Origin: Halichondria panicea
Taxonomy: Eukaryota > Porifera > Demospongiae > Suberitida > Halichondriidae
Direction of reading: 5' to 3'
Assembly: GCF_963675165.1 (NCBI RefSeq)
Contig: NC_087390.1
Coordinates: forward strand, 1,631,501 to 1,695,500
DNA: 64,000 nt
Shown: one piece after another, positions 474-59,761 of the stretch
How the letters are laid out: each line of letters starts with the position of its first letter
Numbering within the stretch: position 1 is the stretch's first letter
Translations under genes and position numbers: made by a program
The notes under the pieces: model-generated
Told to the model about the DNA's origin: nothing
Seen by the model: only the letters and a program-made list of their open reading frames with translations
Databases searched by the model: none

Positions 474-1988
474 TTTTTGCATCACTGAGGCAGTGATGAG
501 TGATGGCAAGATACTTGGCCACTTCCCAGAATGCAGCGCTGAGGGCCAGAGAGAGTGGAGTATCACCAGCCTTGTTGACTGTACCTGTACAGCAGTCATT
601 GTTTGGTTTTACGTTCTACACACCTACAAATTATGAACATACTTCTAGGATCACAACGATGCTCGTTCACAAGGTACGTGACTGTGTCCAAGTGGCCATT
701 GGCACAGGCCAGAGAGAGTGGTGTGTCACCAGACGCTTTGTCGACTGTACCAGTACATGTATACGAGTGTACTGAATGACTACAGCAATTGATGTGCCAT
801 ATACGATTCTTACTTCTAGGATCACAATGATGCTTGTTTATAAGGTATTTGACTGTGCCCAAGTGGCCATTGACACAGGCCAGAGAGAGTGAGATATCAC
901 AAGCTTTGTTGGCCCCTGTGTTGGTTCATGTAGTGTTTGGTAACCAAGCAACACCTTTTATATGATATAATCAGTAACTGCATGCATGTAAAAAAATCAA
1001 ACAGGGATGTTACATTAGAGTGCAGACGTATAGTAAAAGAGATAATTATAGGCTTCCTATACAAGTTTGTGATAAATCTGGTGTACAATTGTTTCTATAG
1101 AGTACAGGCAGCAACGGAATTTCTCAAACAATGACATGTCCTTTGCAAACCTTGCTGAGTGCACACACTCCCTGCCAGCGTGTACTCTCCAATGCTCACT
1201 AGAGCTTCCACAATATCCTTCCACTGCATGTCAATATTCTTAATTTTGGCTGTCCGCAGAGTTGCTGCTGTAGGATGTTGGCTCTTCTTTATGATTTCCA
1301 GTTGGTCATTGCCCAATCCCAAGCAAACACCAAGTTAAAGCCATTGGTCACATTCCAGTTGACTCAGCTGTTCCAGTGTTGGGTACGAGGACAGAGGATC
1401 TATATAATAGTCAGATAATATACTTATAGAAATTCCCGAGTGTACTGAGGGGGGATACTATAATAGTCCCTGATGAGGCATTTTGTCCAGTTATAAATCT
1501 GAGTGTTATTGCACTGATTGTTACTATGATGTACACTGCAGGGCTACAAAATTGCTTAACTTCATTACTTGGACGTACCCTAAGACACATATATATTATC
1601 TGTGACCATGCACGAACTACTGTGTATAACAGCTGATGAGCTGGTGGCTAACTCACCTCTAGATCCAGGCTGGAACTCCTCTACATGGTCAGCCAAGGCA
1701 ACGTCTCCATTCCTTTTGGTCACATCAGCAGCAGTCTATCCATCACTGTCCTTGATATCTGCATGCATGGTTGCAATTGGTTGAACATAACTGAGCATGC
1801 ACTGACAGTACATGTTTAATTGGTGTCTGCTATATAATTATAGCACTCGCCCAGACTAGGACACAACATAAAAGAGCTAGTTAAATCTGAGTGGGAAAAC
1901 TTAGACAGACGTATAATCGACGTCAAAATTCAAAGTCTATATATAGAGATTGTGCATTATACGCACGTTTATATATGGTTTGCCTATA

Positions 1989-2025: not shown

Positions 2026-2501
2026 AAAGCTAGACTAACACCTAGGCTCACCTGTGGGACAGTGGTGCTCCAGTAACAGCTTAGCAGAGTCCTTCTTAAT
2101 TGTTGTATAGGAACATGCCCAGTGCAAGGGAGTCGAACCATCATTATATCTGTAGCAGCTATACAATGGCTCCAAACTTGATGAGTACCTCTGCGCTGTG
2201 GAGATGGCTGTAAGCACATGCCATGTGTGATGGAGTGCATTCATTATTCTTTCTTGTGCAGTAGTCACTGTTGGGTAGAACTCCTCCCTGAAGCAGCTCA
2301 TTGGACAAGTACTCTTTGGTCACAACCATCAAGACTAGCGTAGTAGAGTTGTTTAGCAAGGCGGTCACTATAATTAAAAGGGGAAATAATTACTAGTTTT
2401 GAGTGTGTGAATGGTAGCTACACCAATATCCGGTGCATCAAACAACCAATTATACAATATTTATAAATCTACTATAATAATAATACTAAACTTAACTACA
2501 G

Positions 2502-5318: not shown

Positions 5319-7526
5319 TCAGTCACTCTCAGCACTCACATATAGATCACTGTATGAGCCTGCATGTAAAAAAAGTACTAGTGACTCAAGCAGTACATAA
5401 ATTATAATTATAGACATACACTGTATTTGAAATGTACATGCAACATTTAGTGGAATATGTTCGTCAAGAATGAACACATGTACTGTCATTGTTATACCTT
5501 TTTCATTCAAGTACTGACAGATCTTGGTAGCAATTTCTTCCTTCCTCAGATCCAATAAGATCCTAATCAGTGCTTTAAAGGTTGCTTCGCTGGGTTCGTG
5601 ACCTCTCCAGATTGACAAACAGTTTATCACTGCCACTTGATTCTTTTTACTAACATGAGCGCAAGTCCTCACATCAGCTTGTTCGTTTCCATTCAGCTTC
5701 AGTGGGTGGAGGTAGAGCTCCACATCATCAAAGTGCATAGCTACTGGAGCAAGGTCATCTTGTTCAATCCCTAGATCCAACTGCTCGTCAGTGACTCCAT
5801 GCTTGACCATCAACTCGTGGAGACTGGTGGTCCATGGATCCTATAACACACATGAATGCGTAACATGCTGATAAAATAAGTATACTATAGCCATAGCCAA
5901 GTTGGGGGTAAACTGGCGTAGTAGTATACATTATACAACAGTGGCGTAGGAAGATTTTTACAAGGGGGGCTCATAGTAGTCTGGCCACGCCCTCCCCAAC
6001 TTTGTATTCTTGCAAAGACTAGCTGAAAGAGGCTGGAATTCGAGACTAGGCTCATATAGTCATAGATCAATCATTATCTCTGCGGTAGATCTATCACTTT
6101 GCACTTTAGACATTTGAAACCTATAGCCATCATTGAAATAATCACGCAATTTAAAAGTTAGCTGGCTGCAGCTAGCATGCTGTAGCTTAGTCTCATCATA
6201 GATAGAAGAGAAAGGGATTGGCAACGGAGTGCACTCCCGGTACGATCCGTGTTTCGCCTCGAGGCTTACTTTTAACGTGGGAGTCTAAACATGAATAATT
6301 CATGAGTTTACTATAATTATGTAAAAAAGTCTACAAGCAGTTCTACTGCTAAACATCAACTTCACCTCATTTGTGTGGCCATTTGGGACATAGCACACTA
6401 CTTAGTAACACAACCTAAGGACAGACTGTCCTTAGCTATATATCATAGGTGTTATAATTATAGGAACACAAGCATGAAAAACATTCTGTGTATAGCTACT
6501 TCACAAAAATCAAGATTATATTTTATTCATTTCTAAATGATACCTAACATCAGGGGGCATGTGTTTAAGTGTTGGAGGGGTCTTTGAGAAGTAGGCATTA
6601 GACACAATAAGTTTCCCGGGTTTTCGCGAGAGTTTTAGGGCGAAACACGGATGGTTTCAGGCCTATCTGTACTTTTTGTGTACACTCAATGTAAACGCAT
6701 CACGTGAACTGCCTCCGTTGCAAATCCCTTTCTCTTCAGAGGTGCGGCTGATTCATGAGACTAGCTGTAGCTATAAGCTAGCTCAACAGTTCAAGCTAAA
6801 CATTGCTCTCCAACAAGGGGGGACTACAGTTCCTGGAGACACCCCACTTCCTACGCCACTGTACAAAGAAGTGAAGCACTCATTATAGGGTGGGGCTAAG
6901 TAATTATTTTATTTACCTACACATGCAGCTACGGACAAAGCACCTTTTTCTCATCACCACTGATACCATCGCAACTGATACTAAACACTGAGGGATCGAT
7001 ATCATCATGAGCCACACCAGCTAGGTCCTGTATATATGTATGTGCATGAATAGTGACTCAAGCAGTACATGAATTAGTCCGGGTATACAGAGGAAAGGTA
7101 TATTTATAATAGCTAGAGGAAATTAATAAGCTAACACACTATACACAAGCTTACATATCGGTGTTTGTCAAGAACAGTCATTGTATTTTTCATTAAGTAC
7201 TGACAGATCTTGGTAGCGATTTTTTCCTTCCTCAGATCCAATAAGATCCTAATCAGTGCTCTGAAGGTTGCTTCGCTGGGTTTGTGACCTCTCCAGATTG
7301 ACAAACAGTTGATCACTGCCACTTGATTCCTTTTACTTAAATAAGTCTCTCGCCTCACGTCAGCTTGTTCATTGTCAGTCAACTTCAGTGGGTTGAGGTA
7401 AAGCTCTACATCATCAAAGTGCACTGCTACTGGAGCAAGGTCGTCTTGTTCAATCTCTCGATCCAACTGCTCATCAGTGACTCCATGCTTGACCATCAAC
7501 TCATGGAGGCTGGTAGTCTCTGGATC
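5319..7526 (-). repeat. Tandemly duplicated linker-plus-death-domain exon pair
   Basis: Exons 22-23 (7707-7775 and 7155-7526) and 24-25 (6944-7027 and 5319-5840) are near copies. Each linker contains VAHDDIDxSVF and each death exon begins DPxTTSLHELMVKHGVTDEQ. The death-domain cores share VAVINCLSIWRGH and PSEATF, the second half of a death fold. The first death exon ends at a GT donor (7155) in phase 0, matching the phase-0 acceptor of the second linker, so both can be in one protein. If that donor is skipped, translation stops at 7131. A third, broken copy is at about 24.5-25.1 kb. Confidence 0.7.
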
Positions 7527-10500
7527 CTATACACATGACATGTAGAGATATTAGTAAACTGGTCTTAATTGGGTAAATTCGATTCTAAAACAGTAGATGT
7601 ACAAAGAAGAAAGTTTGAAGCACCCATTATGGTGGGGCCAAAGGGGTCGAACAATTGATAATTCACATTCACAGAATGTGTACACAGTTACAAACAACAC
7701 ACGTACCTTTTGCTCATCACTACTGCTACTAAACACAGAGAGATCAATATCATCATGAGCCACATCAGCTAGGTCCTGTGTGTCAATGAAAAGAAAACTG
7801 TTGAAAGCAAAATCAATTAGACATTTATTCATATATTAGTAAATTCTACTCACCAGAGGGTTTCTCCCAGTGAAGACGCTGTACTTGTTGAGAGTCTCCC
7901 TCAGACAGCTGTAAGTTCCCTCAGTCTCACTCCTCCATGTCTTGAGAGCCTGGACCACCTCCTGTCTGGGACTAACTGACTGAATGTTGACATTAGAATT
8001 GCTCATTATTCTTCTGTACATGCGACTGTTTCGAGCTACTTGATTAAGCTCTTCACTATCGGGTTCGACAACTTGATTGGCAAAATGGAAAATGAATTCT
8101 TTGGAGATTTTCTCATCTTTCTTGACATTCTTGTCACTGTGGATACACTGTATGGTGATTTGATCTAGGCCAGCGTACGGCTCAAACTGTAAGAGGTGCT
8201 CAAAGGTGAGGCCATCTTGTTGTGTCGATTTTATCATTCTTCCATTGGAGGAGACAGTTGCTGCAATATCTTTGATGTTTACCAGCGAGAGGTCAGAAGG
8301 ATTTTTCAGAGGATGCTTAACAACTTCATCTGGATCAATCACTGATTCAATCACATTCACATTGCGGCCAAAACTTTCAACAGTCTCACGGATTGTGTTC
8401 ACAATTCTAGAGCGAAGAATCAGACCTTCAAGTCGAACTGTGTCAGTGCGCATTTTGAGAACAAGAGATCGGCCATTTTCAGCAAGCTCGAGGTGTGCAG
8501 TGATCCCATCATCGTTGTACCAGCAGATCCCACTCTTCCACACTGAGCAGAATCTCTGCAGGGAAGGGACATTGAGCAATATTTTTTGAGCAGGGGCAAG
8601 TCGGAACATGAACACTATCCTCAGAATGAGGACTTGAAGGCAGCGAGGATCAAAAAACTCGGTGTCTTGGGATGTTTCAAATATCCAGCCAAAGTGATAC
8701 TTGATACTCTGAGCGTCTTTCCAAACCTGATCTGGAGTTTCGATACGAATCAGCCCTGGAAAGAAGAGGTATCGAGTGTCAGACTCAGCATCACTGTCAG
8801 TGGAAGAAGCAATCTCTTCTGAAATGAAATCCAAGACTCGTTTGTCTAAGATTTCAAAACACAGCTCTAAATGGGACATGAAGGCAATCAGCATCTCTAT
8901 GTCGAAGCCATTGAATGCTTTCTTAAATTTCGACAAAGGCACCACTCCAGTGCTTGAAGCTAGCTTGCAGTGTTGGCGGAAACTTTCAGGAGCAAACACA
9001 GTCCCAGTTACTGTGGAAAGAAGCGTTTCTTTGTCAATCACTAAAAATGACTTCTCCAGAGAGCTGTCATTGCGGAGAAACAAAAGGAGACCTCTTTTAT
9101 GCAGCTGGTCACAGATCTCTACAAGATGAGGGATCGTGCTGGGTATGAAAGAAAGAATATCTTGGGTGCGTTGTGACAAATCCTCGTTAAGATCGCTCTT
9201 AATTCTTTCGTGGACTTTTCCCAACAACAAAGCGAGGTTGTCTTTGAAGTTTTCGACAAGGTAAATGTAAAAGGTGTGAGCATTCAAGCTGATGATTTCT
9301 GGAGAACGGAGAGTAGCAGAGCTTTTCTGGATCTGTCTTTTCGCTTTTTTCATATCATTCGAATCAGCGAAGCGGCAATCCATTGGAATAAACTCCGTAA
9401 ACTCAAACTTTGGGAATTGCTTGATAATGGGGGCAAAGATGGCCTCTTTGGCACGTGGATCTTCTCCCATTTTCTTCACCTGGTCTGCATGGCTACCAAC
9501 TACTATCACGTGTGCTTTTTCTTTCAGATTGGTGCACTGGTTTTGGACGAGGGTCAACCAATGATACATGGAATCAATAATCGCCTCGTCATTTTCTATA
9601 AGCTTAGCACAGAGGATAATGATGGGTGGTGAGGTTTGAACAGCATTCTCAAGAATGGCACAGTGGCTCGTGTAAAACTCTTTCTGACCAGCAAAATCAA
9701 AGTAAATGATTCTGCCAAACTCCCTGGTGTTTACTTCGTACGGTATAATCCCCACTGTCCTTGCATCGACGCCATTTACTGGTCTTGCCCTCTGTAGTAT
9801 AGACCGAAACCCTCTTGAGGTGTGAATAGATTTCAACAGAGTGCTCTTCCCTACGCCACCGTCGCCAATTATGAGCGCAAACAAAGGAAGTTGTGGGGGT
9901 CGCTCGGAGGAGAGCCTTCCGATAAGGTTGCTGTGTTTCTTGTAGACATTGGCAGCCTTGGCTCCGTGTTTCAAGAGGAGCTTTATGATCTTAGAGTTAT
10001 TTGCCAAATCGAGAGGTGTCTTGCCTTCTTTGTCGGTCACATTCGGATCACTGTGGCATTCTGCCAGTAGAAACTCCACTTTTGAATCACGCCAATACTT
10101 TATTGATAGTAAAAGGGAACCTAGAATAATATAGAAGTTAATCATTGTATACTCCATACATAATTATAATTATACACACCTAACCCAACTTAGTAAAGGA
10201 ATTACCGTAATCCTGTTCCCAAATTAATAACTCTGTATCTATTATTGTATTGGCTGCAGCTAACTCAACATCTATTCATTCATGCAAACTTCCAACAAAA
10301 TGCTAATAGTGATGACCATTTCATAAGAAAAAAATGTATAAAAAGACGCAAACAAGATAATTATATAGGTTGGTCAGTGGTTCGAAAATAGCAATGAGCT
10401 CCAACATACAGTTTCTCCAAAGCATATATGGAGTCAATTGTGCACACACTGGATATAATATGAGTACAATCAATTGATGTAAGGAAGATCAACAAATCAT

Positions 10501-10797
10501 ATAGATTGCAAGTCCCACAAAAATCGTTTCAATGTGATCGCTATAATTATAGGGTTGGCCGGGGAAAACACAAAAAAGTGTAGAAACAAGAAATTTGGCG
10601 AGAGTATAACTTCAATCCGTTACAACGTCATTTACATGTACATTTTACGCGAAATGTTTTTTCGCTGGTAGTTTTCTACCTATTTGGTAGTTTTCCCGGC
10701 CAATTCTAACAATTTTTCACATTGTGCTCTGTAATTATGCCTCGAGGTGTAGCCGCACGAGGAATACGGTAAAGATGACTGTGTGTGTGTGTGTGTG

Positions 10798-10833
<36 letters not shown>

Positions 10834-13800
10834 TGTGTCTGTACTTGTTCCAGCTGTAACTGCTCAACGGTTGCAATGCGAAGAAAACTAACAGCGGCTT
10901 CTATAGCAGGGGCGGATCCAGAAGTAGTTCGCTGGGTTCGTACAAACTACCCTTCCAGCTAGATAATAATCACTTCACCACGGTGCAAATCAATGTGGCT
11001 GATGCAGCCAGTAGCCAGCCCCACCCTCTTGCTATGTAGAGAGAACCAGCCCCACCCTTTTATTATGCAAAGAGAACCAGCCCCACCCTTTTATTAAGCA
11101 GAGAGAACGAACTTTGTACGACTTTGTCTAGCTAGCTAACTGTACTGTCGAATTAGTATAGATTGTAACTAGGGTGACGCAAGCGCCATGGGGCAAGCGA
11201 CGCATCGTGAATTGAAATGTGGGTAGGGCCATATGTGCATGCTCACTGCTGAGGAAAAATGATGACCTTCTTTTTAGTGAAATATGCATGGAACCCCAAT
11301 CTCAAAATTTCAGAATCCCCCACTGGTGATACACTGCTATAATTATGTATAATTGTACAGAGCCTAAACACCATGCGAATACAGTGCAAACTTTTGTTGT
11401 GATTTACTTTTTGTATCACAGTGATGAGTGATGGCGAGATATTTGACCACTTCCCAGTGTCCACCTCTAAAGGCCAGAGAGAGTGGGGTGTCACCAGCCT
11501 TGTTGACTGGTTCTGTGGAATAAGACTATACTATCAACAACGCAACATGCAGCACTGATTATAAACACTTACTATTTGGATCAATATGCTTGTTAATAAG
11601 AGCCTTGATCATATCCAGGTTACCACGGGAACACTCAAGGGAGAGAGGAGTGTCTCCAGCCTCATTCACTGCAACTGAGGATACAAGCAAACTGTGGACT
11701 CTATAATTATATAGAAAGTTAACAGTTTCGCAGTATACACATATTGGGTCACATTGATGTTCTTGAGCAAGCTATTTCATGGTCTACTAGTTGTCCAGAA
11801 ATGTAGAAAAGTAGTGGATTGATTTATGGAATTTGATGTCAAGGCATATACATGATGATGCTGGCCGAATGAGGTTCAGTACTACTAAATACTGGAACTA
11901 AACAGGAGTCAATTAGTAGCTACCTATATACTTGGGACTGTGAAAGCATTGACTATGATATTCTCATTGATGAAATCATTTCATGAAATGGATAACAACT
12001 TTTATCACAGAATAGATTGATCAGTCACAGTGCAAAAGTTCCAATGTCGCACCACTCTATCTAGTGTCTGCAAGAATTAATAACATGTCTGGCTGAGATT
12101 CAGAATAGCGGCTCAATCCAGCTCAACTCTATACTATTAGCACTATGATTATTATATGCATGTATATATAATAATTATTACCATGTTCCAGATAGTTTAA
12201 TTTATATATACACTGTACCGTGCTATATAGGATCTGTCATTGACAACGGAACCCATAATAAAAGAGTATTATCACCAAAATTTAATTCAACCAACAGGTT
12301 AGCAAATTTAAACTAAATTGGGATTTACTTTTTGTATCACAGTGATGAGTGATAGCGAGATATTTGACCACTTCCCAGTGTCCACGTTTGTAGGCCAGAG
12401 AGAGTGGAGTGTCACCAGCCTTGTTGACTGTACCTGTGCATGTACGGTGTGTACTGAGTAATTGTTGACATGGCATAAGGTTTTCTATCACACAACAACA
12501 ACTATTAATGTACTTCTAGGATCACAATGATGCTCGTTCACAAGGTACTTGACTGTGTTCAAGTGGCCCTTCGCACAGGCCAGAGAGAGTGGGGTATCAC
12601 CAGCCTTGTTGACTGGGTCTGTGGAAGACCACCATCAAAAATGTAACAGCACTGATAAACACTTACTATTTGGATCAACATGCTTGTTGATGAGAGCCTT
12701 GACCATATCCAGGTTACCACGTGAACACTCAAGGGAGAGGGGAGTGTCTCCAGCCTCATTCACTGCAACTGTGGATACAAGCAAATTGTTGACACTATAG
12801 AAAGTTTACAGTTTCGCATTTGGTTTTCTACGGCATTGGATTGATTATGGAATTTGATGCCAAAGCATGCATGCATTAATAGTTGTTTAGCACTACTATA
12901 ATTATACTCTGAATAATACTGGTACTAAACAGTGCATGCCTCTGTATATAGCTAGTAGCTACCTGCCTCGACTGTGAAAACATTCTATGGGTTACCCAAA
13001 TACATTTTAAGTGGACAATCAACTGATGAAAGGGAAAGTCTATTGTCACCAAAACTCAATTCAGTGCCAACAGGTTAGCAAAAAACTTAAAATGGGATTT
13101 ACTTTTTGTATCACAGTGATTAGTGATAGCGAGATACTTGACCACTTCCCGGTGTCTACGTTTGTAGGCCAGAGAGAATGGGGTGTCACCAGCCTTGTTG
13201 ACTGTACCTGTACATGTATACGAGTGTACTGAGTGATATTTTGGCTTAGCCAAGATTCCATTTTACATTCTATCACACCTAATGATGAACGTACTTCTAG
13301 AATCACAATGATGCTCCTTCACAAGGTACTCGACTATGTCCAAGTGGCCATTGGCACAGGCCAGAGAGAGTGGGGTGTCACCAGCCTCGTTCACTGGCTC
13401 TGTGAGACCACCATCAACAACGTATAACAACCACTGACAAACCTTACTTTTTAGATCAACATGCTTATTGATGAGAGCCTTGACCATATTCAGGTTACCA
13501 CGGGAACACTCAAGGGAGAGAGGAGTGTCTCCAGCCTCATTAACTGCAACTGTGGACAAGCAAATTGTGGACACTAGACTAAAGTTAACAGTTCACTGTA
13601 CACGCACATTTTGGATCACACTGATGTTCTTGAGTGAGATATTTGATATTCTTCAAATGTCTTTTTTTGTATGCCAGAGAGAGTGGGGTATCACCAGCCT
13701 TGTTGACTGTATCTGTACATGTACGGCGTGTATACTGAGTGATTGTTTGTCATGGCATACAAGCTATCACAAAAAAGGATGAACCTACTTCTAGGATCAC

Positions 13801-16800
13801 AATGATGCTCGTTTACAAGGTACTTGACAGTGTTCAAGTGGCCATTGGCACAGGCCAGAGAGAGTGGGGTGTCACCAGCCTTGTTGACCGGCTCTGTTGG
13901 AAGACCACCATCAACAATGTAACAGCTCTGATAATCACTTACTATTTGGATATACATGCTTGTTAATAAGAGCCTTGACCATCTCTAAGTTACCATGGGA
14001 ACACTCAAGGGAGAGAGGAGTGTCTCCAGCCTCATTCACTGCAACTGTGGATAATTGTGGACACTTAAAAGTTAACAGTTTTGTAGTGCACACACATTTT
14101 GGGTCACACTGATGTTCTGAGCAAAATGTCATAGTCTAAGTCTACACTATGTTTATAGTTGGCAAAAATGTATAGGGTTGTCTCAGGCATCATGGATTGC
14201 ATGGTGTTGGGTAATAATTATGTATGGAATTTGATGGCAAAGCATAGTTATAGCATTTATAGTTGAATGAAGTTTAGTACTAAAATACTGGGCTACCCTA
14301 ATCTAGAGCTTGTGCTTGCTTACTGCTTCAAGTGTGAACATATTCTACTAATCACGGAATGTAATTGACCATTTTGGTGCGAAAGCTCCACCAAAATGCA
14401 CTAAAACCAACAGGTTAGCAAACTTGAAGATTTACTTTTTGTATCACAGTGATGAGTGATGACGAGATATTTGGCCACTTCCCAGTGTCCTCTTTTGTAG
14501 GCCAGAGAGAGTGGGGTGTCACCAGCCTTGTTGACTGTACCTGTACATGTACGGGGTCGTGTACTGAGTGATGCGGCAATTGATGTGCCGTGCTTACTTC
14601 TAGGATCACAATGATACTCGTTCACAAGGTATTTAACCGTATCCAAGTGGCCATTGGCACAGGCAAGAGAGAGTGGGGTGTCACCAGCCTTGTTGACGGT
14701 ACCTGTATAGATGTACAATTAAGACTTAGTGCACACTGAGTGATGCAGGAATTGATGTGCTATATGCTTACTTCTAGGATCACAATGATGCTCGTTTAGA
14801 AGGTACTTGACTGTGTTCAAGTGGCCATTGGCACAGGCCAGAGAGAGTGGGGTGTCACCAGCCTTGTTGACTGTACCTGTACATGTACGGGGTCGTGTAT
14901 ACTGAGTGATGCAGCAATTGATGTGCCATGCTTACTTCTAGGATCACAATGATACTCGTTTACAAGGTATATAACTGTGTCCAAATGGCCATTGGCACAG
15001 GCCAGAGAGAGTGGAGTATCACCAGCCTTGTTGACTGTACCTGTACATACATGTGTACATCGTGTAAGACAATCATGTTACATGATAATCAAGCAAAACT
15101 CTATCTATATGTGTATAATTAAAACAAACGAGAATTTGATACATTAGGTGTACCACAGCATTCAAAATGCTAATACAACTATACAGCACCAAAGTGCTAA
15201 CTCTCGGTTGTTGACCTATAGCAACAAAAAGAGTGGCATATACAGTAGCAAGTAACAGGAGCAATAATATTAAAGTAGACTAGAGGCACGCTGAAACTAT
15301 TGAGAACGGATCACAGTAAAGCCAGCAAAGAATCTGTTCTGGGGATAGGATAAGCAAAGAAGAAACAACCACAATCATATTTCTATAGTTTTCCACTTTC
15401 ATAACTTTTTCCATTGTTCATGGTACGCTTGTATAGCTATATATAGCTATAGTGCAGCCAACGTGCAAGTTATATAGCTTTTATTCGATGACAACGAAGC
15501 CACTATTAAAATGAAAGCACCACGGGTACGTGCTGATGCCTTGGTGGAGATACCAAAGCTACATAACATATAAAGCTACCAGTATCATAATTATGATGAA
15601 CATTAATATTAATTTTGCATGCAAACTCAAAGAGTTGGTAATGATCAACCATTATTATATCGATTGATGCCAAAAGTTCAAGTCTAAAATTAATGGCTGC
15701 ATCAGCAGAGCCTTGCAGCTCTCTTCTTGACTCTTGCATAGCCTACCTTAGGCTGTCAGCTAAAGAAGCTAGCATAGCTAAGGAAATTTTGACTGGAGAT
15801 TTTATTATTAGCAGTTATTTCCTGCTCATGCTCATGCTGAAGAGTCCCACCCACAAAACTGTAAAACAACGTAGCTAGATAGACAGCACAGTGCACAAAA
15901 CTGTTCGATCTTTAAAGCAATAGTTTCAGTATTATTGAGCTTATTTAGTGACTTTATTGTCCCAGCTCAGGAGCAGCAACCTTGAAAATCCAGGTAAATA
16001 GCACTTTCCGGACGGGTCACAGGACAGAGCCTCTTAATCCGGGACGTACTGTCCCGGGAGTTTCAGGACAGTTGGCACCTCATGTATTATGACATGAAGC
16101 TATTGAATCTATAGCTATAATTATACATTGATGCAAAATGTGAGAAATGATCGACCATTATCGTAGCTAAATAGGATCGGAAAATTTTTAAAAGTCCATA
16201 AAATTAATGGCTGCTGCATGAAACAGCTAAGTGCAGCTCTTTTCTCATTCTTGCAACTACCAATAGCTCATCCAACTTAAAATTTAGTTTACCGTCCTGA
16301 ATTCTCGTGAGGGCAAGCTCTTCATTACATAATGCATCATGTACAATAATTACAGCAATTTTGTTGCCCATGCAGTGAGTGGGCAGATCAAAGCAACCCA
16401 GTACTCTGTAATATGGAATGTTGCATCACTACCATAGCAACCATAATTATATGTGTAAATGCAGTGGATGAAATATGCTTTTTGCCAATAACTCAGGTCA
16501 CTTTGAACTATAGTTGTGGGAAGCAAAACTAAGAATTTACTATGGAATTCAGCAAAACTAATGAATTCACTCAAAATACACATGTCTATTATTGCCAATC
16601 AGAATAGTTTGACGTCATTGGGCAACGAGTTAGTTATTGCAGGCACCCTCGTGCAACATGCCCGGCCCTCGACCATTATGTTGCTCCAGTGGCATGTTGC
16701 ACTCGTGCTAGCTGGGCAATATAACAAAGTAGAGTTCTTCCTTCAAGTTATTTTTGCCTTAGTTATAGCTCTGCCACATACTTGATGATGTCATATTAAT

Positions 16801-19800
16801 TACAAATAATGAAGTAAAGTACAAAGGTCAATAATGGAAAAGAATATGGTACCGTCTTTCTTCTAAATATAGGATCACTCCAATAGAAGAACCAGCTGAA
16901 TTTTTTCGTTCTATTTACGAATTATTTTATTGTGGTGCTTAATTAATTAGTTAGCACGACCATTACCAACAACCTACAGTTATAAAATACAGCTAGCATG
17001 TACATGGCTTTAAGCCCATAGTCTGTATAAGTCAGGCTCAGTTAAGTATAGGATATACCACACCTACTCGGAGGATATGCACCCATACATCCTCCACTAC
17101 CGTGGTTACTCTGAGGAGGAGCCGAGAGGTATGTAACCAGAGGATATTATGTGGGTGTATATCCTCCGAGTAGGTGTGGCATATCTGACTTATACCACGT
17201 GACCGCAGCACTATAAAAGGACCTCCCCCTAGCAACAATTCAGTCCTCCACGATGCAGACTGCACAAAAAACAGGACTATGCCGGATTTTTCAGCCGTCA
17301 AAGAGCTAGTTGAGCAACACGTCGACTCCTACAGATGCTCAAGAGCTTCCTTGGTCCAAGCGTTGACCATTCGACGTCCCTTACTGGAGGAGTTACAAGC
17401 TTTTCTTGGAAAAAATGTATCTAAACCAAGCCCATGGACACACGGAAGCTTAGCCATCTTGCTGAAGAGCAGCTTCGATCCGTGTTTCTGCAGTCGCTTT
17501 GAGCCTTGGTACCGTCAAGCATGGCTCTTTTCTCTTTGCTTACTTTCTTTGAACAAATGAAAAAACAATTTGAAAACTGTGCATGCCTGGGGCTGTATGC
17601 TAATATTCTATATATCTTATACAGCTGTTGACCAATGAGATCAAATAGTGCATGGTGATGTATAAGTGTGGTATAAATGCTACATATACTATTGCTGATA
17701 CACATACAGTTGATAAAATGCTACTGCAGATAGAGATGACGATCATATAGATTTTGAATTTTTGAGCGGCTATATATATTTGAGGCAACCAGGTCACTGT
17801 AATACCAGAGGTCCCAAAGAATCTGACTTGACAAGCTTTCAGCAGACCCTCTTTAGCCACACAACAGTGATAAAAATTCGATAGGGTTTCATATATAAAA
17901 AAAGCAGGAGCTGCATGATCTAGGAGGGAAAGGATAAAATTAGTTCACCTTTTGAATTGAGGCCCACAGTTTCCACAAGGTGCTTGATACAGTCCAGCCA
18001 GCCATAGAATGCACTCACTGATAGAGCACTCTCACCTTCTCCTGCAGTTGGTACAATTATTGTTGGTATACAATCCTATATATAAATACTATAAAACCTG
18101 GTCTATACTCAGAACAGACATAATTATTATACTGTACAATTACAAGGGTTTGGTTTAAATTATAGTGTATAAAATTATAATAATCACTTATATACTACAT
18201 AACAGATATAGTTTGCAACACAAGCTCGTAATAAATATGGTGTAGGTATAGTAACGGATTTCTTAAACAATATTCTATATACAAGCACGTGAACTATATA
18301 TATATTATATATGTCATTTTCTGACCTTGCTGAGTGCATACACTCTCTGCCAACTTGTACTCTCCAATGCTCACTAGAGCTTCCACAATGTCCTTCCACT
18401 GCATGTCAATATTCTTGATTTTAGCTGCCTGGAGAGTTGCTGCTGTGGGATGTTGGCTCTTCCTTATGCTTTCCAGTTGATCATTGCCCAATCCCAAGCG
18501 AACACCAAGTTGAAGCCATTGGTCACATTCCAGCAAACTCAGCTGTTCCAGTGTTGGGTAAGTGGACAGAGGATCTATGCATAATAATTAAGATATATCT
18601 GTGGGATTTAGAAACTCCTGTTAGTATCCTGACTAATGGAGAGGGCATACTTAGTCTAATAGTCCCTGAGGCATTGTCATCATTTTCCACTCCTCATGCA
18701 TATACTAATTGGTACATATTTATAATTATGAAGGTATCACTATAGACACCTATAGTGACCATTCATATCGTAATAATAAGTACGTTCCAAAGTTCCAACA
18801 CCTTCAGAAAAGCTGATCTTAACTTAATACAAGAGCTTCAACAGTATTTTACATTACAGTAGACTCTCGTTAATCCGGTCACCCTTGGGACCATGCAGCT
18901 TGGCCGGAATAGCGAGGTGGCTGCATCTCAGGAAATAGTCGCGGCTTAAAAGACCTTACCTCGAATCTAACAGTGGCGTAGGAAGCACGGGTGCTCAGGG
19001 TGCTGGAGCACCCCCTTATCTCAAGCTACCTTACCTACTTGCTCCATGAAGTTCAGAACAGCTAGCTAGCTTGATACAGCAGCTAGCTAGCTAATATAAT
19101 TATAGTAGTCGAGCTAGTACAGTGCAACAACCAAAGAGAGTAGATTTTTTTTTTTGGTACACATTTTTTACATTTTGTGGTATATCTTCTAAAGTAAAAG
19201 TGATATGATCTATTTGAGTGCAGGTACTGAAAGTTCAACTATTGGCGCTTCCATTGGACCACCACCTGTTACATCACATGACATCATCAGTATAAAATGG
19301 CTGTCTGAAGATGTGTACTTCCGAAAATATGTTAGGAATAGAAGTAGCTTATTTGTTTGAGTTAAGATCTGAAATTTGTTGTGCACGTACCTGAGTATAT
19401 TGCTCATCTTTTGAGCTTCAACGGAAGTCTGGGCTACTAGTAAGTTCTGAGAAATACTGCATTTTGTTGTTTTTTGGTGGCAAATATGTTAGGAATACAA
19501 CTTTAGATTTTATATTAGTTAAGGTCTGATTTTTGAGCAGCATGTACTACAATAGTGTACTTTTCATCTGTACTAACTTACAGGAGTTAGGCTAGCTTCT
19601 TCTTTGCTAGAGCGGCCCATCTTGTCAAAAACAGTGCTTTTTATGACTTTTGGGGCAATTTGGCTACGTAGTAAGCTCAATTACCACGCCCCTGTGACAC
19701 AGAATGACCAACACCAACTGTGTATTTGCAGGTAGACATCACATGACCTTTGGATGTAGCAAATAACAACAAGATGATTTGTGATGTCACAAATCAATGA

Positions 19801-22800
19801 ATATCATTGCATACGTCAGCAAAAGTAGCAAAACGGAGCAAAATCACCATTTTTGACAAGAAGGGCTGCTCTAGCAAAGATGAGACTTGTCTAGCTCCTG
19901 TAAGTTAGTACAGATGAATTCTATGCTATTGTAGTACATGCTCCTCAAAAATCAGACCTTAACTAGCATAAAATAGAAAGTTGTATTCCTAACATATTTG
20001 CCACCAAAAAACAACAAAATTCAGTATTTCTCAGAACTTACTAGCAGCCCAGACTTCCGTTGAAGCTCAAAAGATGAGCAATATAGTCAGGTACATACAC
20101 AATAAATTTCAGATCTTAACTCAAACAAATAAGCTACTTCTATTCCTAACATATTTTCGGAGGTACACATCTTCAGACAGCCATTTTATAGTGATGATGT
20201 CATATGATGTAACAGGTGGTGGTCCAATGGAAGCGCCAATAATTGAACTTTCAGTACCTGCACTCAAATAGATCATATCACTTTTACTTCAGAAGATATG
20301 CCACAAAATGTGAAAAAAAATAATATAAAAAAAAATCTACTCTCTTTGGTTGTTGCACTGTAGGTAATAGTTACTGAGCTAGCTATACTAGCATAGTTAC
20401 GTACACAGTACAAAGGTCAGCTAGAATTTATCCAAAATCATGTAGAATTAATTATTTTGGCAAATTTTGATACTGTACCAAATTTGCTTAGTCCGGGAAT
20501 GTAGAGTGCCCAAATTTTTCGGGGGCAAGCCCCCGGACCCCCAGATATATCATTGGCCTCTGGCCACCTCAGCACCCCCTTACAAAAACATCTTCCTACT
20601 CCTCTGTCTAATGAGTACTTTTGCGGTTCTTGTCTCGAGGATAATGTAGGATAATGAATCATTCTGTTCTCTATTTAAGTGTAATTCAATTTTATTTGCT
20701 AAACCACACCCAAACGTCATATCCGGCCGTAATATACGTATAAAATTACATTGAAAACCTTGTTTGGGACAGACAGCACTGGCCGGTAAACAGAATAGCG
20801 AGGTGGCCGTACTTCAGGTCGAGTTTTGTGCAGAAAACATATAGCTAGCATTCCGTGCCAAACCAAATGGCCGGTATATTGAGGTGGCCGCATTTCAGAG
20901 AGCCGGAATAGCGAGAGTCTACTGTATACAGAAACCACTGCCGATTTAGCTGTATACTGACCCAGGGGCGTAACTAGCAATGAGGCAGAGGAGGCCCTTC
21001 ATGCATCTTGTACTACAAATGTCATGTGACTCACCTCACTATAGCTTTTAATAGCTCTGGCTAGCTAACTTCTGGATAACTAGCCAACTATAGGTATATA
21101 GAATGAACAGAAAATGAGCTCTATCACTATCTTGTAGATGAAAAAAAGACGTTAGTGGGTGTAGTTTCCGGATAAAAATTTTGGCAAGCGCCCCGGTTGC
21201 TTCTCCTTCCCATAACATTTCTAGTTACGCCCTTGCTGACTATGCAACTCACTATAACAGCAGCTGATGGCCAACTCACCTCTAGGTCCAGGCTGGAACG
21301 CCTCCACATAGTCAGCCAAGGCTGGGTACCCATACTCTCTGGCCACAACAGCAGCAGTTCGTCCATGTATGATCTTGATATCTGCATGGGGTTGATTGCA
21401 TGAACAGGAGCTAATGAACATAAACCGACAGTATATCACTAAAAATGACTTCTCCAGAAGTTCCCAGGCCTTGCTGTCATTGTTCATGCATAAATAGAAG
21501 GTAGTAAAAAAAGAATAGACGAAATGAGGCAGCAAAGAAAGAAATGGGCGTACTAAGAAAAAGTAAGGCGGCCTGGTTTGGGAAATCGCGTGATCCAAAA
21601 AGATTTTTATGAACGTGGGCGATATAATTATAGCCCATAATCGTGGTGTAAGGTATTCTCCTACGCATTCAAGTTACTGAGACAACCACACAGTCAGCTT
21701 TACCGTATCCCTCGTGCGGCTACGCCTCGAGGCATAACCACCAAGCTGTGCTGGTGGGGAACAGTTAGGGAAACAGCGTGGCCAGCTCTGGTGGCAGTAG
21801 CTGCCTGCTAGATGATAATGATGCATAACTAAACTATTAGTTTAGATCTAGCGTTTAGAAAGACGCAAGAAAAATTTACTATGGTATAATATTATATAGA
21901 ATCTAGATCTATACTAGCCTTATAGTAGATCTAGCTAGCTTTTATAAACTGTTTGCAAACTTCCAGTTCCAAGTACAGCTAGCAGGGGGCAAAGTTTTAG
22001 TCGTACATCTCTACGTGGGCAGTCCAACATCTCTAGCTCTGCGTGCCCATGCTCATTTTCATCCTTCTACCACCCTACCCTTACGCGACTTCCCGATACA
22101 GGCTCTCTAACTCTACCTCTATTTCTTTCTTTATTCCTCCAATTAATACCGTATTTTATCTCATTGAATGATTAATACAGTATTTTGAATTAACGATTAT
22201 GATAAAGAACAGAAAAAGGAGAGCCTCTATGCATATGTAGAGGCTACTCTCATTGGACACAATATTCAATTTCAAACCTTATAATAATTATAGTGGAAAT
22301 AATTTATTATTATTTTTGGCAATTTGGTGAATCTATAATCTTTACAGTGAGGACGCCAAAGTCTATATAGAGATTGTGCATGCACATTTATGGCTTGCCT
22401 ATAATATACATATATAGTATTGACACGTGCATGTGATCAAATGCATGCAGTAAGATCGGTAAATTGCTAATTAAATCGCTAAATACAATGCTTGCCAAAT
22501 TTTCCCGCTCTACGGTATTTGTAACATGAGATGCCTTACTTTATGCATAAAACATGCTGAACAATGTTTGTAAGTTTGTTATACATAGTAACCGTGCACT
22601 ATTGCGTATACCGACTACTCAAAGGTACCTATAATATATATAATTATGACTGTGAAGGCTTTGCTATATCTACAATGGCAGCCACGTACTGCATGCTATA
22701 TATATATACACCTAGACAAGATGACAGACACCTACTAACACAGCTGGACTAACACCCAAGATCACCTGTGGGACAATGGTGCTGCAGTAACAGCTGAACA

Positions 22801-23269
22801 GTGTCCTCACTGTTGTAGAAGCATGCCCAGTGTAAGGGGGTCCAGCTATTGTTAGCTGTAGCAGCTACAATGGCTCCAAACTTGATGAGTAGTTCTGCAC
22901 TTCGGAGATTGTTACGAGCACATACTCTGTGTAGTGGAGTGTCTCTACTACGCTTTCTAGTGTAGTAGTCACTGTTGTTGGGTGGAGCTCCTCTTTGTAG
23001 CAGCTCAAGCACTGCTTGGTCACTACCATTCTGACTAACCTTGTAGAGTTGTTCAGCAAGGCGGTCACTATGGGGAGATGATGTTTGCAGCCATTATTGT
23101 TTAATTAGTGTTTGGGTGTGCATGCAAATGGTAGATCAAAATCGAATTAAATCTTCTACTACACATTGACGTGTAATTATTAACTGCACTTAATTACGCT
23201 CTTATTATTTTATTGAGGAAAGCTATAGATAATTATAGCGAACAGTTTCTCTTACCTGTTAGTATCCAT
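5319..23269 (-). CDS. Ankyrin-death-ankyrin(n)-Roc-COR-death-death (ROCO family) protein
   Basis: The model has 25 exons (minus, high to low): 23256-23269, 22766-23067, 21280-21381, 18326-18574, 17949-18041, fifteen ankyrin exons between 15040 and 11408, 7854-10120, 7707-7775, 7155-7526, 6944-7027, 5319-5840. All junctions use GT/AG and phases agree; the sum is 5637 nt, 1878 residues. Domains: ankyrin 1-139, death domain about 140-222, ankyrin 223-253, fifteen ankyrin repeats 254-774, a last ankyrin then Roc with GDGGVGKST (about 860), DFAGQKE (916) and GSHAD (983), then COR, then two linker-plus-death units (1531-1677, 1678-1878). No kinase or leucine-rich repeat is seen. Roc-COR with ankyrin and death domains recalls DAPK1 without its kinase. 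By family, Roc binds GTP and death domains mediate homotypic assembly; a role in cell-death or immune signalling is inferred. The first ATG is set by exon 1 conservation among three copies. Separate shorter transcripts remain possible. Confidence 0.75.
5939..6861. mobile_element. 923-bp hAT-like MITE with 5-bp TSD TACAA
   Basis: Ends are CAGTGGCGTAGGAAG and its perfect inverse. TACAA lies at 5934-5938 and 6862-6866. The paralogous segment at 24971-24990 is the uninterrupted site with a single TACAA, which proves the insertion. Interior sequence near both ends is also inverted (for example GAGAAAGGGATT near 6208 and its inverse near 6725). There is no transposase. It sits in the intron between the two terminal death exons. 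Confidence 0.88.
7854..10120 (-). CDS. Roc-COR exon (exon 21 of the ROCO gene)
   Basis: This 2267-nt exon is uninterrupted. It opens with one ankyrin repeat (AECHSDPNVTDKEGKTPLDL), then a Ras-like Roc domain: P-loop GDGGVGKST, switch II DFAGQKEF, and GSHAD at the G4 position where small GTPases have NKxD. HAD at G4 is usual in ROCO proteins. The COR domain follows, with the typical IPHLVEICDQLHKRGLLLF helix. The C-terminal part has several beta-rich stretches and a helical end leading to the linker. The acceptor at 10121-10122 keeps phase 1 with the ankyrin exons and the donor after NPL leaves phase 0. All nucleotide-binding residues I can check look intact, so the GTPase is probably functional. 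Confidence 0.85.
10555..10703. mobile_element. 149-bp MITE with TTGGCCGGG ends
   Basis: Terminal inverted repeats TTGGCCGGGGAAAAC (left) and the inverse of TTTTCCCGGCCAA (right) flank non-coding sequence in the intron upstream of the Roc exon. No target duplication could be defined with confidence. Confidence 0.5.
10780..10836. repeat. (GT)n microsatellite
   Basis: A near-perfect GT run interrupted once by CAT lies in the ROCO intron. It directly follows a GCCTCGAGGTGTAGCCGCAC block that recurs inverted at about 21715-21735 and is probably a dispersed element end. Confidence 0.85.
10908..10926. mobile_element. Lone hAT-like terminus
   Basis: CAGGGGCGGATCCAGAAG resembles the ends of the other hAT-like elements in this window (CAGTGGCGGATCC at 23891). 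I did not find a convincing partner end, so this may be a truncated copy. Confidence 0.4.
11015..11107. repeat. Three tandem copies of a 31-bp repeat
   Basis: Three units begin CCAGCCCCACCCT and end AGAGAA, with a few substitutions between them. They lie in the intron upstream of the Roc exon and are non-coding. Confidence 0.75.
11408..15040 (-). repeat. Array of 15 single-repeat ankyrin exons (ROCO exons 6-20)
   Basis: Each exon encodes one ankyrin repeat and enters and leaves in phase 1. High to low: 14936-15040, 14772-14876, 14598-14702, 14436-14540, 13943-14044, 13789-13893, 13608-13712, 13448-13549, 13295-13399, 13103-13207, 12667-12768, 12514-12618, 12329-12433, 11573-11674, 11408-11512. 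Eleven are 105 nt and four are 102 nt. Three main types are clear: A (NKAGDTPLSLACANGHLDTV), B (NEAGDTPLSLECSRGNLDMV) and C (NKAGDTPLSLAYKRGHWEVV). B-A-C recurs as a higher-order unit of about 0.5-1 kb. All 15 are open with intact splice sites. Symmetric phase means any number can be gained, lost or skipped without a frameshift. Remnants of further exons remain in introns, for example near 11740 and 14095. Confidence 0.85.
15041..17024. other. Intron of the ROCO gene, no exon recognised
   Basis: A direct duplication is visible: about 15640-15760 and 16130-16280 share ATGATC-ACCATTAT and ATTAATGGCTGC blocks. A short inverted repeat around GGCATGTTGCACTCGTG lies near 16645-16715, and a GGGACGTACTGTCCC palindrome near 16041. 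None looks coding. Confidence 0.45.
17025..17195. repeat. 171-bp inverted repeat upstream of the small nested gene
   Basis: The outer arms GTATAAGTCAG and CTGACTTATAC and the inner arms (17052-17087 and 17150-17185, containing CACACCTACTCGGAGGATAT) form a long hairpin with a short, partly inverted middle. It looks like a MITE or a cruciform-forming element. It ends one base before the CACGTG/TATA promoter of the gene at 17279, so it may contribute regulatory sequence. Confidence 0.65.
17196..17219 (+). promoter_or_regulatory. E-box CACGTG and TATA box of the nested gene
   Basis: CACGTG at 17196-17201 is followed by TATAAAAG at 17212-17219. A start site about 30 bases on, near the TCAGTCC at 17240, would give a short leader before ATG 17279. 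An out-of-frame upstream ATG is present at 17253. Confidence 0.55.
17279..17560 (+). CDS. Small intronless gene nested in a ROCO intron, unknown product
   Basis: This is a single open frame of 93 residues behind a good TATA box. I do not recognise the family. It has no signal peptide. The first half is helical in character (VKELVEQHV, LLEELQAFLG), the second half holds SFDPCFCSRFEPWYRQAW with two cysteines, and the end is hydrophobic (LFSLCLLSL). It lies antisense in the intron between ROCO exons 5 and 6, directly after a long inverted repeat. It could be a real small gene, a fragment of a mobile element, or a chance frame beside a TATA-like site. The promoter is what lifts it above background. 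Confidence 0.4.
   Translation: MPDFSAVKELVEQHVDSYRCSRASLVQALTIRRPLLEELQAFLGKNVSKPSPWTHGSLAILLKSSFDPCFCSRFEPWYRQAWLFSLCLLSLNK
17949..18574 (-). CDS. ROCO exons 4-5: internal death domain and ankyrin repeat
   Basis: Exon 4 (18326-18574, 249 nt) is an 83-residue death domain with LECDQWLQLGVRLGLGNDQ, the hydrophobic core spacing of the family, and the final helix DIVEALVSIGEYKLAESV. Exon 5 (17949-18041, 93 nt) is one ankyrin repeat (GESALSVSAFYGWLDCIKHL). Both are symmetric phase 1. A death domain placed before the main ankyrin array, as well as two at the C terminus, is unusual for a ROCO protein. The equivalent exon in the decayed copy is at 1151-1399 with a stop codon. Confidence 0.75.
18971..20606. 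mobile_element. hAT-like element with 5-bp TSD TCTAA (middle shell)
   Basis: The left end is CAGTGGCGTAGGAAG and the inverse of the right end is CAGAGGAGTAGGAAG. TCTAA flanks both sides (18966-18970 and 20607-20611). It belongs to the same family as the element at 5939. It carries a third insertion at 19120-20360, leaving about 390 bp of its own sequence. Confidence 0.82.
19120..20360. mobile_element. 1241-bp giant palindromic element (innermost shell)
   Basis: Ends CAGTGCAACAACCAAAGAG and its perfect inverse are flanked by TA. The arms, about 520 bp each (19120-about 19640 and about 19840-20360), are near-identical inverted copies around a spacer of about 200 bp. The TA duplication suits a Tc1/mariner-type foldback element. 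The mirrored open frames in the two arms (near 19210-19407 and 20074-20271) are a consequence of the palindrome. As part of the ROCO intron, RNA from it would form a very long hairpin. Confidence 0.82.
20962..21235. mobile_element. 274-bp hAT-like MITE with 5-bp TSD CTGAC
   Basis: The left end is CCAGGGGCGTAACTAG and the inverse of the right end is CAAGGGCGTAACTAG, with CTGAC at 20957-20961 and 21236-21240. It ends only about 40 bp from the donor of ROCO exon 3. Confidence 0.75.
21280..21381 (-). CDS. ROCO exon 3 (ankyrin-like)
   Basis: This 102-nt phase 1-1 exon encodes IKIIHGRTAAVVAREYGYPA followed by LADYVEAFQPGPR. It reads as the second half of an ankyrin unit and a short linker to the death domain. 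The decayed counterpart at 1657-1758 has the same length but an in-frame TAG. Confidence 0.65.
21382..22765. other. ROCO intron 2, no exon recognised
   Basis: The sequence is largely AT-rich. The segment 22350-22410 matches 1930-1990 of the decayed copy (blocks AGTCTATATAGAG and TTTGCCTATA), confirming that the duplication covered introns as well as exons. An inverted GCCTCGAGG dispersed end lies at about 21715-21735. Confidence 0.5.
22766..23269 (-). CDS. ROCO exons 1-2: start codon and first ankyrin repeats
   Basis: Exon 1 (23256-23269) is only 14 nt: ATG plus four codons ending ACAG before GTAAG. Exon 2 (22766-23067) gives DRLAEQLYKVSQNGSDQAVL and two ankyrin repeats (DTPLHRVCARNNLRSAELLI; WTPLHWACFYNSEDTVQLLL). 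The three copies of exon 1 in the window share the same ATG and donor, which supports this start. Confidence 0.7.
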
Positions 23270-24499: not shown

Positions 24500-25675
24500 T
24501 CAAGAATGAACACATGTACTGTCATTGTTATACCTTTTTTCATTAAAGTACTGACAGATCTTAGTAGCAATTTCTTCCTTCCTTAGATCAAATAAGATCC
24601 TAATCAGCGCTCTAAAGGTTGCTTCGCTGGGTTCGTGACCTCTCCAGATTTGACAAACAGTTTATCACTGCCACTTGATTGCTTTTACTAACATGAGCGC
24701 AAGTCCTCGCATCAGCTTGTTTGTTTCCATTCAGCTTCAGTGGGTGGAAGTAGAGCTCCACATCATCAAAGTGCATAGCTACTAGAGAAAGGTCATCTTG
24801 TTCAATCCCTAGATCCAACTGCTCGTCAGTGACTCCATGCTTGACCATTAACTCGTGGAGACTGGTGGTCCATGGATCCTATAACACACATGCATGAATG
24901 AGTAACATGCTGAGAAAATAAGTATACTATATATAGCCATAGCCAAGTTTGTGGTAAACTGACGTAGTAGTATACATTATACAAAGAAGTAAAGCACTCA
25001 TTATAGGGTGGGGCCAAAGGGTAATTATTTTATTTACCTACACAGCTACAGACAACGCACCTTTTTCTCATCACCACTGATACTATATCACCACTGATAC
25101 TAAACACTGAGGGATCAATATCATCATAAAATTAATGTGATGAAGATCATCATATTTAGTCGTGCTTGTAACCTCTCTACTCTTTGTAACTGCACAATGA
25201 GGGGAATACGATAAGCAAACTAAATGAATTATATGTAGCTATTATGTACATGTATAGCTACCAATAAATGAGAAATTATGGCCCATTTCCAAATAAACAT
25301 ACAATGTACCATCTGAAAGAGCTCCTTTTAAGCTTTCAGAAAATCAGAAAATCGTTGACATTGGATCATCAGAACTCTATTTAGAGAGCCAATTCTAGTA
25401 CTCGAGTCCAATCACACAATGAAAAATTGGATTGAAAGTACCAAAGGACAATCGGAATGCAATTAAAGTCCTCCAGAAGCATATTTTAATTAAGAACTTT
25501 GACCCTGACATTCATTATGCATTGAGAAAATGACCTCTCACCTTTAGATACTCGTAGCAACTCCCTCAGAACAGACATAATAGCAAAGGGTACTTTCCTG
25601 TAAAATTACGAGGGTATGGTATAGTGCATACAATGCCGCTCTAGTGAGCAGTTTCTCTTACCTGTTAGTATCCAT
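24500..25675 (-). pseudogene. Chimeric ROCO remnant: exon 1 joined to the terminal linker and death exons
   Basis: Exon 1 with ATG at 25675 and donor at 25662 is intact, but the next recognisable exons are the terminal linker (25061-about 25127, cut off in the middle) and death exon (24878 downwards). The ankyrin, Roc and COR exons are missing. The death exon has an extra T near 24650 that shifts the frame within INCLS, so the fold is broken. The segment 24340-25120 aligns with 5319-7030 but lacks the 923-bp MITE there. It could be an internally deleted third gene, or the 3' end of one copy next to the 5' end of another. Confidence 0.75.
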
Positions 25676-54087: not shown

Positions 54088-54539
54088 CACACAGTCACGT
54101 TGAACACAGAATTCAAACAGCTATAAATAACAAATTTTTGATTGCAGTTCATCAGCACTGGTTGCATCACAACACTTAGTAGCTGCAACACGTTTAACTT
54201 TACGTTTATGTATAATTATTATTTCTCAAGCAAATGTTATTGCGTACATGATTTTTTGCTGCTATCATTTCACATTTTCAAGTATGATGCACCATACTAT
54301 AAAGTCATCATTATTCGTATTGGTACGTATACAGCTGGCTGTAATTTTTTCATCACTCTTCTTATAAAATTATGTGTAGCAATCAGAGATTTTAAGAGGT
54401 GAAAAATTAGTGTATTATTATGTCGACTCTTTTCCAAATTAGGATTATTCAATTTCAAGCCGCGGGTTACAATTATTATTGAGAATGTATAGTTAACGAT
54501 CTTTACCTAAGTAAAAGAGGTGTTACGTGTGCAGCAAAC
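54088..54539. other. Gap between RECK and the double death-domain gene
   Basis: It contains the RECK 3' UTR and the next gene's promoter. No TATA box or element ends are clear. Confidence 0.4.
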
Positions 54540-59689: not shown

Positions 59690-59694
59690 CTACA

Positions 59695-59761
<67 letters not shown>

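Follow-up and report, generated by a model that had tools for sequence, protein, structure and literature searches.

What does the ankyrin-rich gene on the minus strand of this stretch of Halichondria panicea DNA (64,000 nucleotides, hereafter the window) encode: one protein with a GTPase core between Death domains, or parts of two separate genes, and what could such a protein do? Between positions 23269 and 5319, 26 exons could be joined into 1832 residues and a stop codon, with all 25 introns bordered by GT/AG, phases in agreement, and no internal stops. The single frame with GT/AG borders and consistent phases described in an earlier note on this DNA was thus retained, and its 25 exons and 1878 residues were replaced in the remodelled gene.

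All exons are given in window positions on the minus strand. Exon 1 (23256..23269) provides the start codon and encodes MDTN and a split codon. The 20 nt formed by exon 1 plus its donor recurred 205 bp 5' of the N-terminal ankyrin exon in one (L034+35) of nine paralogs modelled below, and were not found in the 365-2167 bp upstream of that exon in the remaining eight. Exon 2 (22766..23067), identified by Pfam Ank and by its variability across 28 paralogs, contains the N-terminal ankyrin repeats and is a hypervariable putative recogniser, hereafter the N-ankyrin exon. It is followed by exon 3 (21280..21381), a capping-like fourth ankyrin repeat with nine homologues, by the N-side Death domain of exon 4 (18326..18574; N-Death), and by an ankyrin-like repeat in exon 5 (17949..18041) that is kept in paralogs. 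An inverted repeat (19164-20317), with arms of 489 nt that are 92% complementary and 176 nt apart, lies within the intron that separates exon 3 from exon 4 and looks like a palindromic mobile element. Exons 6-20 (11408..15040; Pfam Ank_2, 1.1e-112) form a central ankyrin array of 15 exons of 102 or 105 bp, each encoding one repeat, with phase-1 introns at the borders. The last ankyrin repeat, the Roc GTPase, and a probable COR domain share exon 21 (7854..10120). Downstream lie a linker kept in paralogs (exon 22, 7707..7775), the first C-terminal Death copy (exon 23, 7155..7526), a duplicated linker (exon 24, 6944..7027), the second C-terminal Death copy (exon 25, 5498..5840), and the tail of the C terminus with the stop codon (exon 26, 5319..5359). 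Exon 23 does not have the donor used by exon 25 and stays in frame only through a later GTAAGC donor; the third Death domain of the protein is therefore putative.

We compared the conceptual protein with Pfam, a check suggested in the earlier note. Ankyrin repeats matched strongly, Roc exceeded its cut-off (29.4 versus 27 bits), and Death exceeded its cut-off in exon 25. Roc was also matched at E ≤ 10 in all of 22 family members (best 1.8e-9), in which the P-loop GKST and the DxAGQ and SHxD motifs were invariant (22/22), and the Roc profile of the family matched LRRK2 Roc with an E value of 1.5e-11. The description of the protein as kinase-less agreed with the search of five segments covering its whole length, none of which matched a kinase domain in Pfam. 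TRADD-N was likewise unmatched in the window protein, as was LRR, ankyrin being matched instead. NACHT gave no match at E ≤ 10 in the window protein and was weakly matched in 9 of the 22 members, with a best E value of 0.025 versus 1.8e-9 for Roc.

The Death assignments were of unequal strength. Against a Pfam cut-off of 22.6 bits, exon 25 scored 24.9 bits and exon 23 scored 21.5 bits, and exon 4 of the window copy reached 16.8 bits, or 19.7 bits when scanned alone. Homologues of these exons matched Pfam Death at E ≤ 1 in 10 of 12 cases for exon 4 (best 8e-5) and in 13 of 14 cases for copies of exons 23 and 25. Three Death domains had been claimed; exon 25 is one on its own score, and exons 23 and 4, each under the cut-off singly, are supported by the family. 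An N-side Death domain is accordingly predicted for the family, the window copy alone falling below the cut-off. In PDB searches, the family profile of exon 4 did not find a Death chain, and the C-terminal Death profile yielded weak matches, the best being CRADD (E 0.13), followed by FADD. A fourth Death-like segment noticed by eye at the end of exon 21 was dropped, Death being unmatched in this exon of the window gene; it was also absent among the best 25 of the 39 families listed for the 22 members.

A COR domain likely follows Roc in exon 21, as judged from its position. COR models were unmatched in the window protein and were absent among the best 25 of the 39 families listed for the 22 members, and none of the 61 rows retrieved with the Roc exon (see below) coincided with one of the 60 COR-A matches in the genome. 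A joint alignment of the family with the LRR-Roc-COR-kinase proteins of the same genome extended over 350 columns (E 7.4e-10) and was carried by Roc; against one ROCO set of this genome, the whole exon was aligned at the P-loop only. With hhalign, the COR segment alone gave E values of 0.01-0.06 against two ROCO sets of the genome (0.14-0.45 for its second half), which was no better than a mismatched control of Roc against COR (0.043); two COR-A-positive sets compared with one another gave 9.7e-4. The order proposed earlier (ankyrin, Death, ankyrin array, Roc, Death, Death) was upheld, except that its COR label found no Pfam match. We regard the gene product as a predicted ROCO protein, subject to COR, and its unusual domain order, with Roc central and Death on either side, was borne out by the gene model and Pfam.

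To place the gene in its genome, we searched the 131-Mb assembly (39 contigs, here numbered with the prefix C) with the Roc exon. Of the 61 rows obtained, 42 with 48-100% identity were used, the window's own included; 16 distant rows with 37-40% identity (14 on C7) and three fragments were left out of the order count. Thirty-two of the 42 close Roc exons were located on contig C5, and five of the 42 contained in-frame stops. Judged from these matches, the window gene is a member of a large duplicated family, most of which is clustered. The earlier picture of a lone protein no longer holds, since this genome has 42 close Roc exons, including that of the window gene.

This family allowed us to ask whether the ankyrin/Death exons at the 5' end and the Roc exon belong to one gene. 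We modelled nine close paralogs (L021, L022, L023, L024, L025+26, L028+29, L030+31, L034+35, and L038), and in all nine the N-ankyrin exon, exon 3, N-Death exon, exon 5, and Roc exon occurred in the same order and on the same strand; the linker and C-terminal Death exon (C-Death) were present too in all eight with their 3' end covered. Most boundaries had splice dinucleotides in the expected phase, either exactly where predicted or displaced by one codon, in a search that was lenient because it allowed shifts in three-base steps of up to 24; the C-Death donor was displaced in six of eight. The exons of seven paralogs were also joined in silico. Six of these could be read without a stop from N-ankyrin through to C-Death, with lengths of 1170-1586 residues; the seventh, in which the N-ankyrin exon is split, could not. 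Two further loci agreed in part: L027 (C10) had the N-ankyrin, N-Death, and Roc exons in order, and L036 had its 5' part in order. In the distant relatives L032, L033, and L039, Roc and C-Death were present, but N-ankyrin and N-Death were unmatched in their stretches. Module swapping, considered from N-ankyrin versus Roc distances among seven genes, which showed no clear correlation (Spearman 0.32, p 0.16), was set aside, the genes being too few.

Across the 42 close Roc exons, the N-ankyrin and N-Death exons lay 5' of Roc, in order and on the same strand, in 26 (searched over 30 kb or until another Roc exon was reached); for 21, the N-ankyrin exon was within 15 kb upstream in this arrangement, and the complete order including C-Death was found for at least 17. 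As a control, the opposite strand was searched on both sides of each Roc exon under the same distance limits, and N-Death exons were found for 0 of the 42. N-Death occurred downstream on the same strand for 11 of the 42, none of which had an N-ankyrin exon beyond it, as expected where genes follow one another in tandem. The outcome that would speak against the model, namely 5' exons and Roc exon in separate genes, is opposed by this order and strand in the paralogs. The 2.9-kb intron between exons 5 and 6 would suit a pair of adjacent genes, one encoding ankyrin-Death (exons 1-5) and the other ankyrin-Roc-Death (exons 6-26), but the two halves were kept together across paralogs in order, strand, and phase, and the gap from N-Death to Roc shrank to 1.6-1.9 kb in some of them. 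We consider such a pair very unlikely; that the ankyrin/Death 5' exons and the Roc exon form one gene is well supported by these comparisons.

The C-terminal Death pair set the window copy apart. Among the matches listed, C-Death occurred within 5 kb 3' of Roc once in 27 of the 42, not at all in 13, and twice in two; these counts use the best 150 of 614 candidates, and distant copies may be missed. The two genes with two copies were the window gene (85% and 100% identity to exon 25) and C5:6963074 (84% and 40%). The tandem pair reported earlier is thus present in the window gene, and among the 42 a pair of close copies was listed only there. Fragments of related genes were observed around it. 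An orphan C-Death exon 5' of the gene (24545..24878, minus strand), broken into two frames with profile matches at hmm 1-80 and 76-111, is most simply read as a paralog fragment; an equal-scoring copy of it is located at C14:1520168. On the other side, a downstream paralog has a broken N-ankyrin exon (2053..2302, minus strand; C14:1633553-1633645 and, containing three stops, 1633635-1633802) and an N-Death exon with one TAA (1152..1397, minus strand; C14:1632652-1632897). A partial second copy about 135 kb off (C14:1513927-1520398), comprising a truncated N-ankyrin exon (96%) and the orphan C-Death fragment, suggests a segmental duplication of the window region.

Next, we focused on how selection has acted on the exons of this family. 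For the N-ankyrin exon, we used 28 of 31 matches at ≥61% identity, excluding three (one truncated and two divergent). Pairwise counts that ignore recombination, taken from disjoint nearest pairs, gave the N-ankyrin exon a pN/pS of 1.02 (14 pairs from 28 genes). The values were lower for N-Death (0.48; 12 pairs from 25 genes), C-Death (0.36; 4 pairs from 9 copies, two of which belong to the window gene), and the Roc exon (0.32; 8 pairs from 17 genes). The Death domains and Roc exon are under constraint, with the N-side Death domain under purifying selection. The median omega of the N-ankyrin exon was 0.83 with the first 10 genes and 1.10 with 28.

Sites of the N-ankyrin exon with entropy >2 included ankyrin positions 2, 3, 5, 10, 13, and 14, counted from the TPLH motif. 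We examined a mask of positions 2, 3, 5, 13, 14, and 33, which we take to be the randomised surface positions of DARPin libraries. The mask was chosen once the variable sites were known, though without any tuning to the data. At its 13 codons, the 28 paralogs showed 161 nonsynonymous and 13 synonymous differences (pN/pS 3.04, p=2.7e-6 for >1); the remaining 85 codons of the exon gave 0.72 (p=0.0025 for <1). A pairing without identical pairs gave 2.26 at the mask and 0.88 elsewhere, and under this pairing none of 10000 random 13-codon masks reached the observed pN. With random matchings, the median was 2.19 for mask codons and 0.78 for the others; all 2000 gave p<0.01, these being reuses of the same 28 genes rather than independent tests. 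The mean entropy was 2.01 with the mask in register and at most 1.36 when it was shifted by 1 to 32 positions. With eight genes that have models (4 pairs), the mask value was just 1.54, and again 0 of 10000 random masks reached its pN. Tryptophan and tyrosine are common in binding sites; at the sites with entropy >2 in the N-ankyrin exon, tryptophan rose from 0.9% to 8.7% and tyrosine from 3.8% to 11.8%. These data show an excess of amino-acid change at putative ligand-contact positions on a constrained scaffold.

One DARPin paper, in the text consulted, places the randomised positions on the concave surface without numbering them. Designed repeats with printed sequences vary among themselves at 2, 3, 5, 13, 14, and 33, as well as at 26 and once at 4. 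The N-ankyrin exon resembles DARPins in having variable residues at these same ankyrin positions (2, 3, 5, 13, 14, and 33); DARPins are artificial, whereas this natural exon is also variable at position 10 and not at 26.

As a rival reading, the N-ankyrin exon might be drifting without constraint among decaying duplicates that are on their way to becoming pseudogenes. The pN/pS of the whole exon is near 1, stops occur in 5 of the 42 Roc exons and in some N-Death exons, and broken copies adjoin the gene. Against this, the excess was confined to the contact positions, the other 85 codons remained below 1 in each analysis (0.72, 0.88, and median 0.78), the Roc exon kept a pN/pS of 0.32 over 8 disjoint pairs, and six of the seven joined paralogs were open. 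We therefore regard decay as highly improbable, the least credible of the explanations considered here.

The earlier note had assigned ligand sensing to the ankyrin array. The number of array exons ranged widely among the nine paralogs (0, 1, 1, 1, 2, 3, 6, 13, and 18, of 96 to 108 bp, unbounded pieces being left out of the count) and is 15 in the window gene. In the 36 of 60 array repeats that have 34 residues, positions 2, 3, 5, and 10 were nearly invariant (entropy 0-0.5), and positions 13 and 14 were variable (1.7-1.9). Since positions 2, 3, 5, and 10 are nearly invariant in the array, the diversified surface is, for those positions, particular to the N-terminal domain. The array as a diversified sensor, for which brown algae offered a precedent, was rejected on the near-invariance of these positions, and the part with the diversification expected of a sensor is instead the short N-terminal ankyrin domain.

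Taken together with the gene model, this distribution of variability leads us to propose, as the probable reading, that the window gene belongs to a family of kinase-less ROCO proteins working like intracellular NLR-type receptors. In such a protein, the N-terminal ankyrins would act as a DARPin-like recogniser that binds variable non-self or partner ligands, and the central array would be a spacer that sets its reach. Ligand binding would alter the GTP/nucleotide and dimer state of Roc-COR; shifts of this kind are discussed for other ROCO proteins in the consulted part of PMC6337361. The Death domains could then be brought together and recruit Death-fold adaptors, leading to cell death or defence signalling. 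That Death assembly might be coupled to sensing and to GTP state, as suggested earlier, is plausible on this arrangement, with the sensor placed at the N terminus. The family may work like an NLR-type receptor, but it lies outside the NLR family, whose bona fide members combine NACHT with LRR; neither domain was matched in the window protein.

DAPK1 has ankyrin repeats and is among the closest known comparisons. According to the accessible text of PMC6337361, it represents the ROCO group of metazoans that carries a Death domain and lacks LRR. Like DAPK1, the window gene combines ankyrins, Roc, and a C-terminal Death domain (here exon 25, 24.9 bits) and has no LRR match, and these shared features would fit a regulator of apoptosis or autophagy without a kinase, in which ankyrins bind conserved partners, the GTPase tunes Death binding, and the tandem expansion arose by chance. 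DAPK1, however, has a kinase, whereas the window gene has no kinase match, carries an additional N-side Death domain and an array of one-exon repeats, and belongs to a large clustered family whose N-terminal contact surface is diversified rather than conserved. We judge a DAPK1-like role to be unlikely. The diversifying selection on the N-ankyrin exon is also compatible with self-recognition or host-factor binding. An allorecognition family, in which the variable surfaces of the ankyrins recognise self labels or one another and Death domains execute rejection, would leave the same signature as a pathogen receptor, namely a clustered family with a diversified contact surface and Death outputs; nothing in the data favours self ligands, and we consider this explanation improbable to a similar degree. 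The preferred reading remains an NLR-like receptor on a ROCO core.

Three other families offered further points of comparison. In the available part of PMC11378527, the LRR-ROCO candidate immune receptors of brown algae form an expanded family with one repeat per in-phase exon, the LRRs being 72-bp phase-2 exons and LRR-ROC-COR the sole architecture reported there. The family described here shares the expansion and the one-exon recognition repeat; in the algae, as that text has it, the repeat exons diversify, whereas here the array is nearly constant at contact positions 2, 3, 5, and 10 and separate N-terminal ankyrins diversify. For fungal NLRs, the sections consulted of PMC4986451 report positive selection on ankyrins mostly at the concave surface, together with changes in repeat number. 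Diversified ankyrin repeats and changing repeat number are common to both families; the fungal proteins of that account have a NACHT or NB-ARC core, with repeats C-terminal of it and diversity within the array, whereas the core here is Roc. In the sponge Amphimedon, large lineage-specific Death/TRADD-N expansions, often with ankyrins, are discussed for apoptosis and immunity in the excerpts of PMC8195603 consulted, in which ROCO occurs once, in a reference title. These are likewise sponge expansions of proteins with Death-like domains, but they involve TRADD-N as far as those excerpts describe them, whereas the window gene has no TRADD-N match and has a Roc GTPase core. In the titles and abstract openings of the open-licence literature searched, the present architecture was not reported.

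The variability of the first ankyrin domain suggests that a class of immune-type recognition proteins has gone unrecognised. More tentatively, and with somewhat less confidence than we would need to prefer it, we advance a broader possibility: ankyrin paratopes would form the basis of an immune-type repertoire in an animal, with dozens of ROCO receptors sharing a Death-ROCO-Death chassis, a spacer adjustable by repeat exons, and N-terminal ankyrins diversified at DARPin-library positions, the same sensor and Death exons also flanking a second ROCO core. If true, an animal would have reached the ankyrin binding surface of engineers independently, by gene duplication and site-restricted diversification, and combined it with a ROCO GTPase and Death domains instead of NACHT and LRR. 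The known range of innate receptor designs would then widen, and ROCO proteins, to which LRRK2 and DAPK1 are related, would gain a receptor-like function that could be tested in an animal. It would also supply natural ankyrin binders with directly screenable ligands.

The second core was encountered among related loci. C-Death exons with 72-82% identity to exon 25 lie 1.1-1.8 kb 3' of an unlike, COR-A-positive ROCO core at C5:1.69-1.77 Mb (which includes L047), C22:24174-25791, C5:5905664-5909140, and C5:6097448-6099191, and in two of the C5 cases N-ankyrin and N-Death exons lie upstream as well. Going by coordinates, these modules seem to occur on the flanks of two different ROCO cores. Beyond the L034+35 gene, further C-Death exons (80%, 80%, and 46%) begin at a distance of 3.7 kb (C6:1314759-1329136). 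Dozens of N-ankyrin-like exons with about 30-37% identity to exon 2 occur at C1:0.06-2.7 Mb and constitute another tandem family. Genome-wide, all of the best 150 of 614 C-Death candidates scored as matches, and Pfam Death gave at least 148 matches (150 of 503 candidates scored), so that the genome, by these profile searches, holds a very large Death-domain repertoire. Within the window, neighbouring open frames at 54483-55587 (plus strand) contain two Death matches of 30.1 and 20.5 bits, the latter under the cut-off, and are assigned to a separate predicted Death-fold gene. An open frame at 55926-57065 (minus strand) has a protein kinase domain (45.7 bits), and upstream of it lies a long open frame (58323-59879, minus strand) without a Pfam match.
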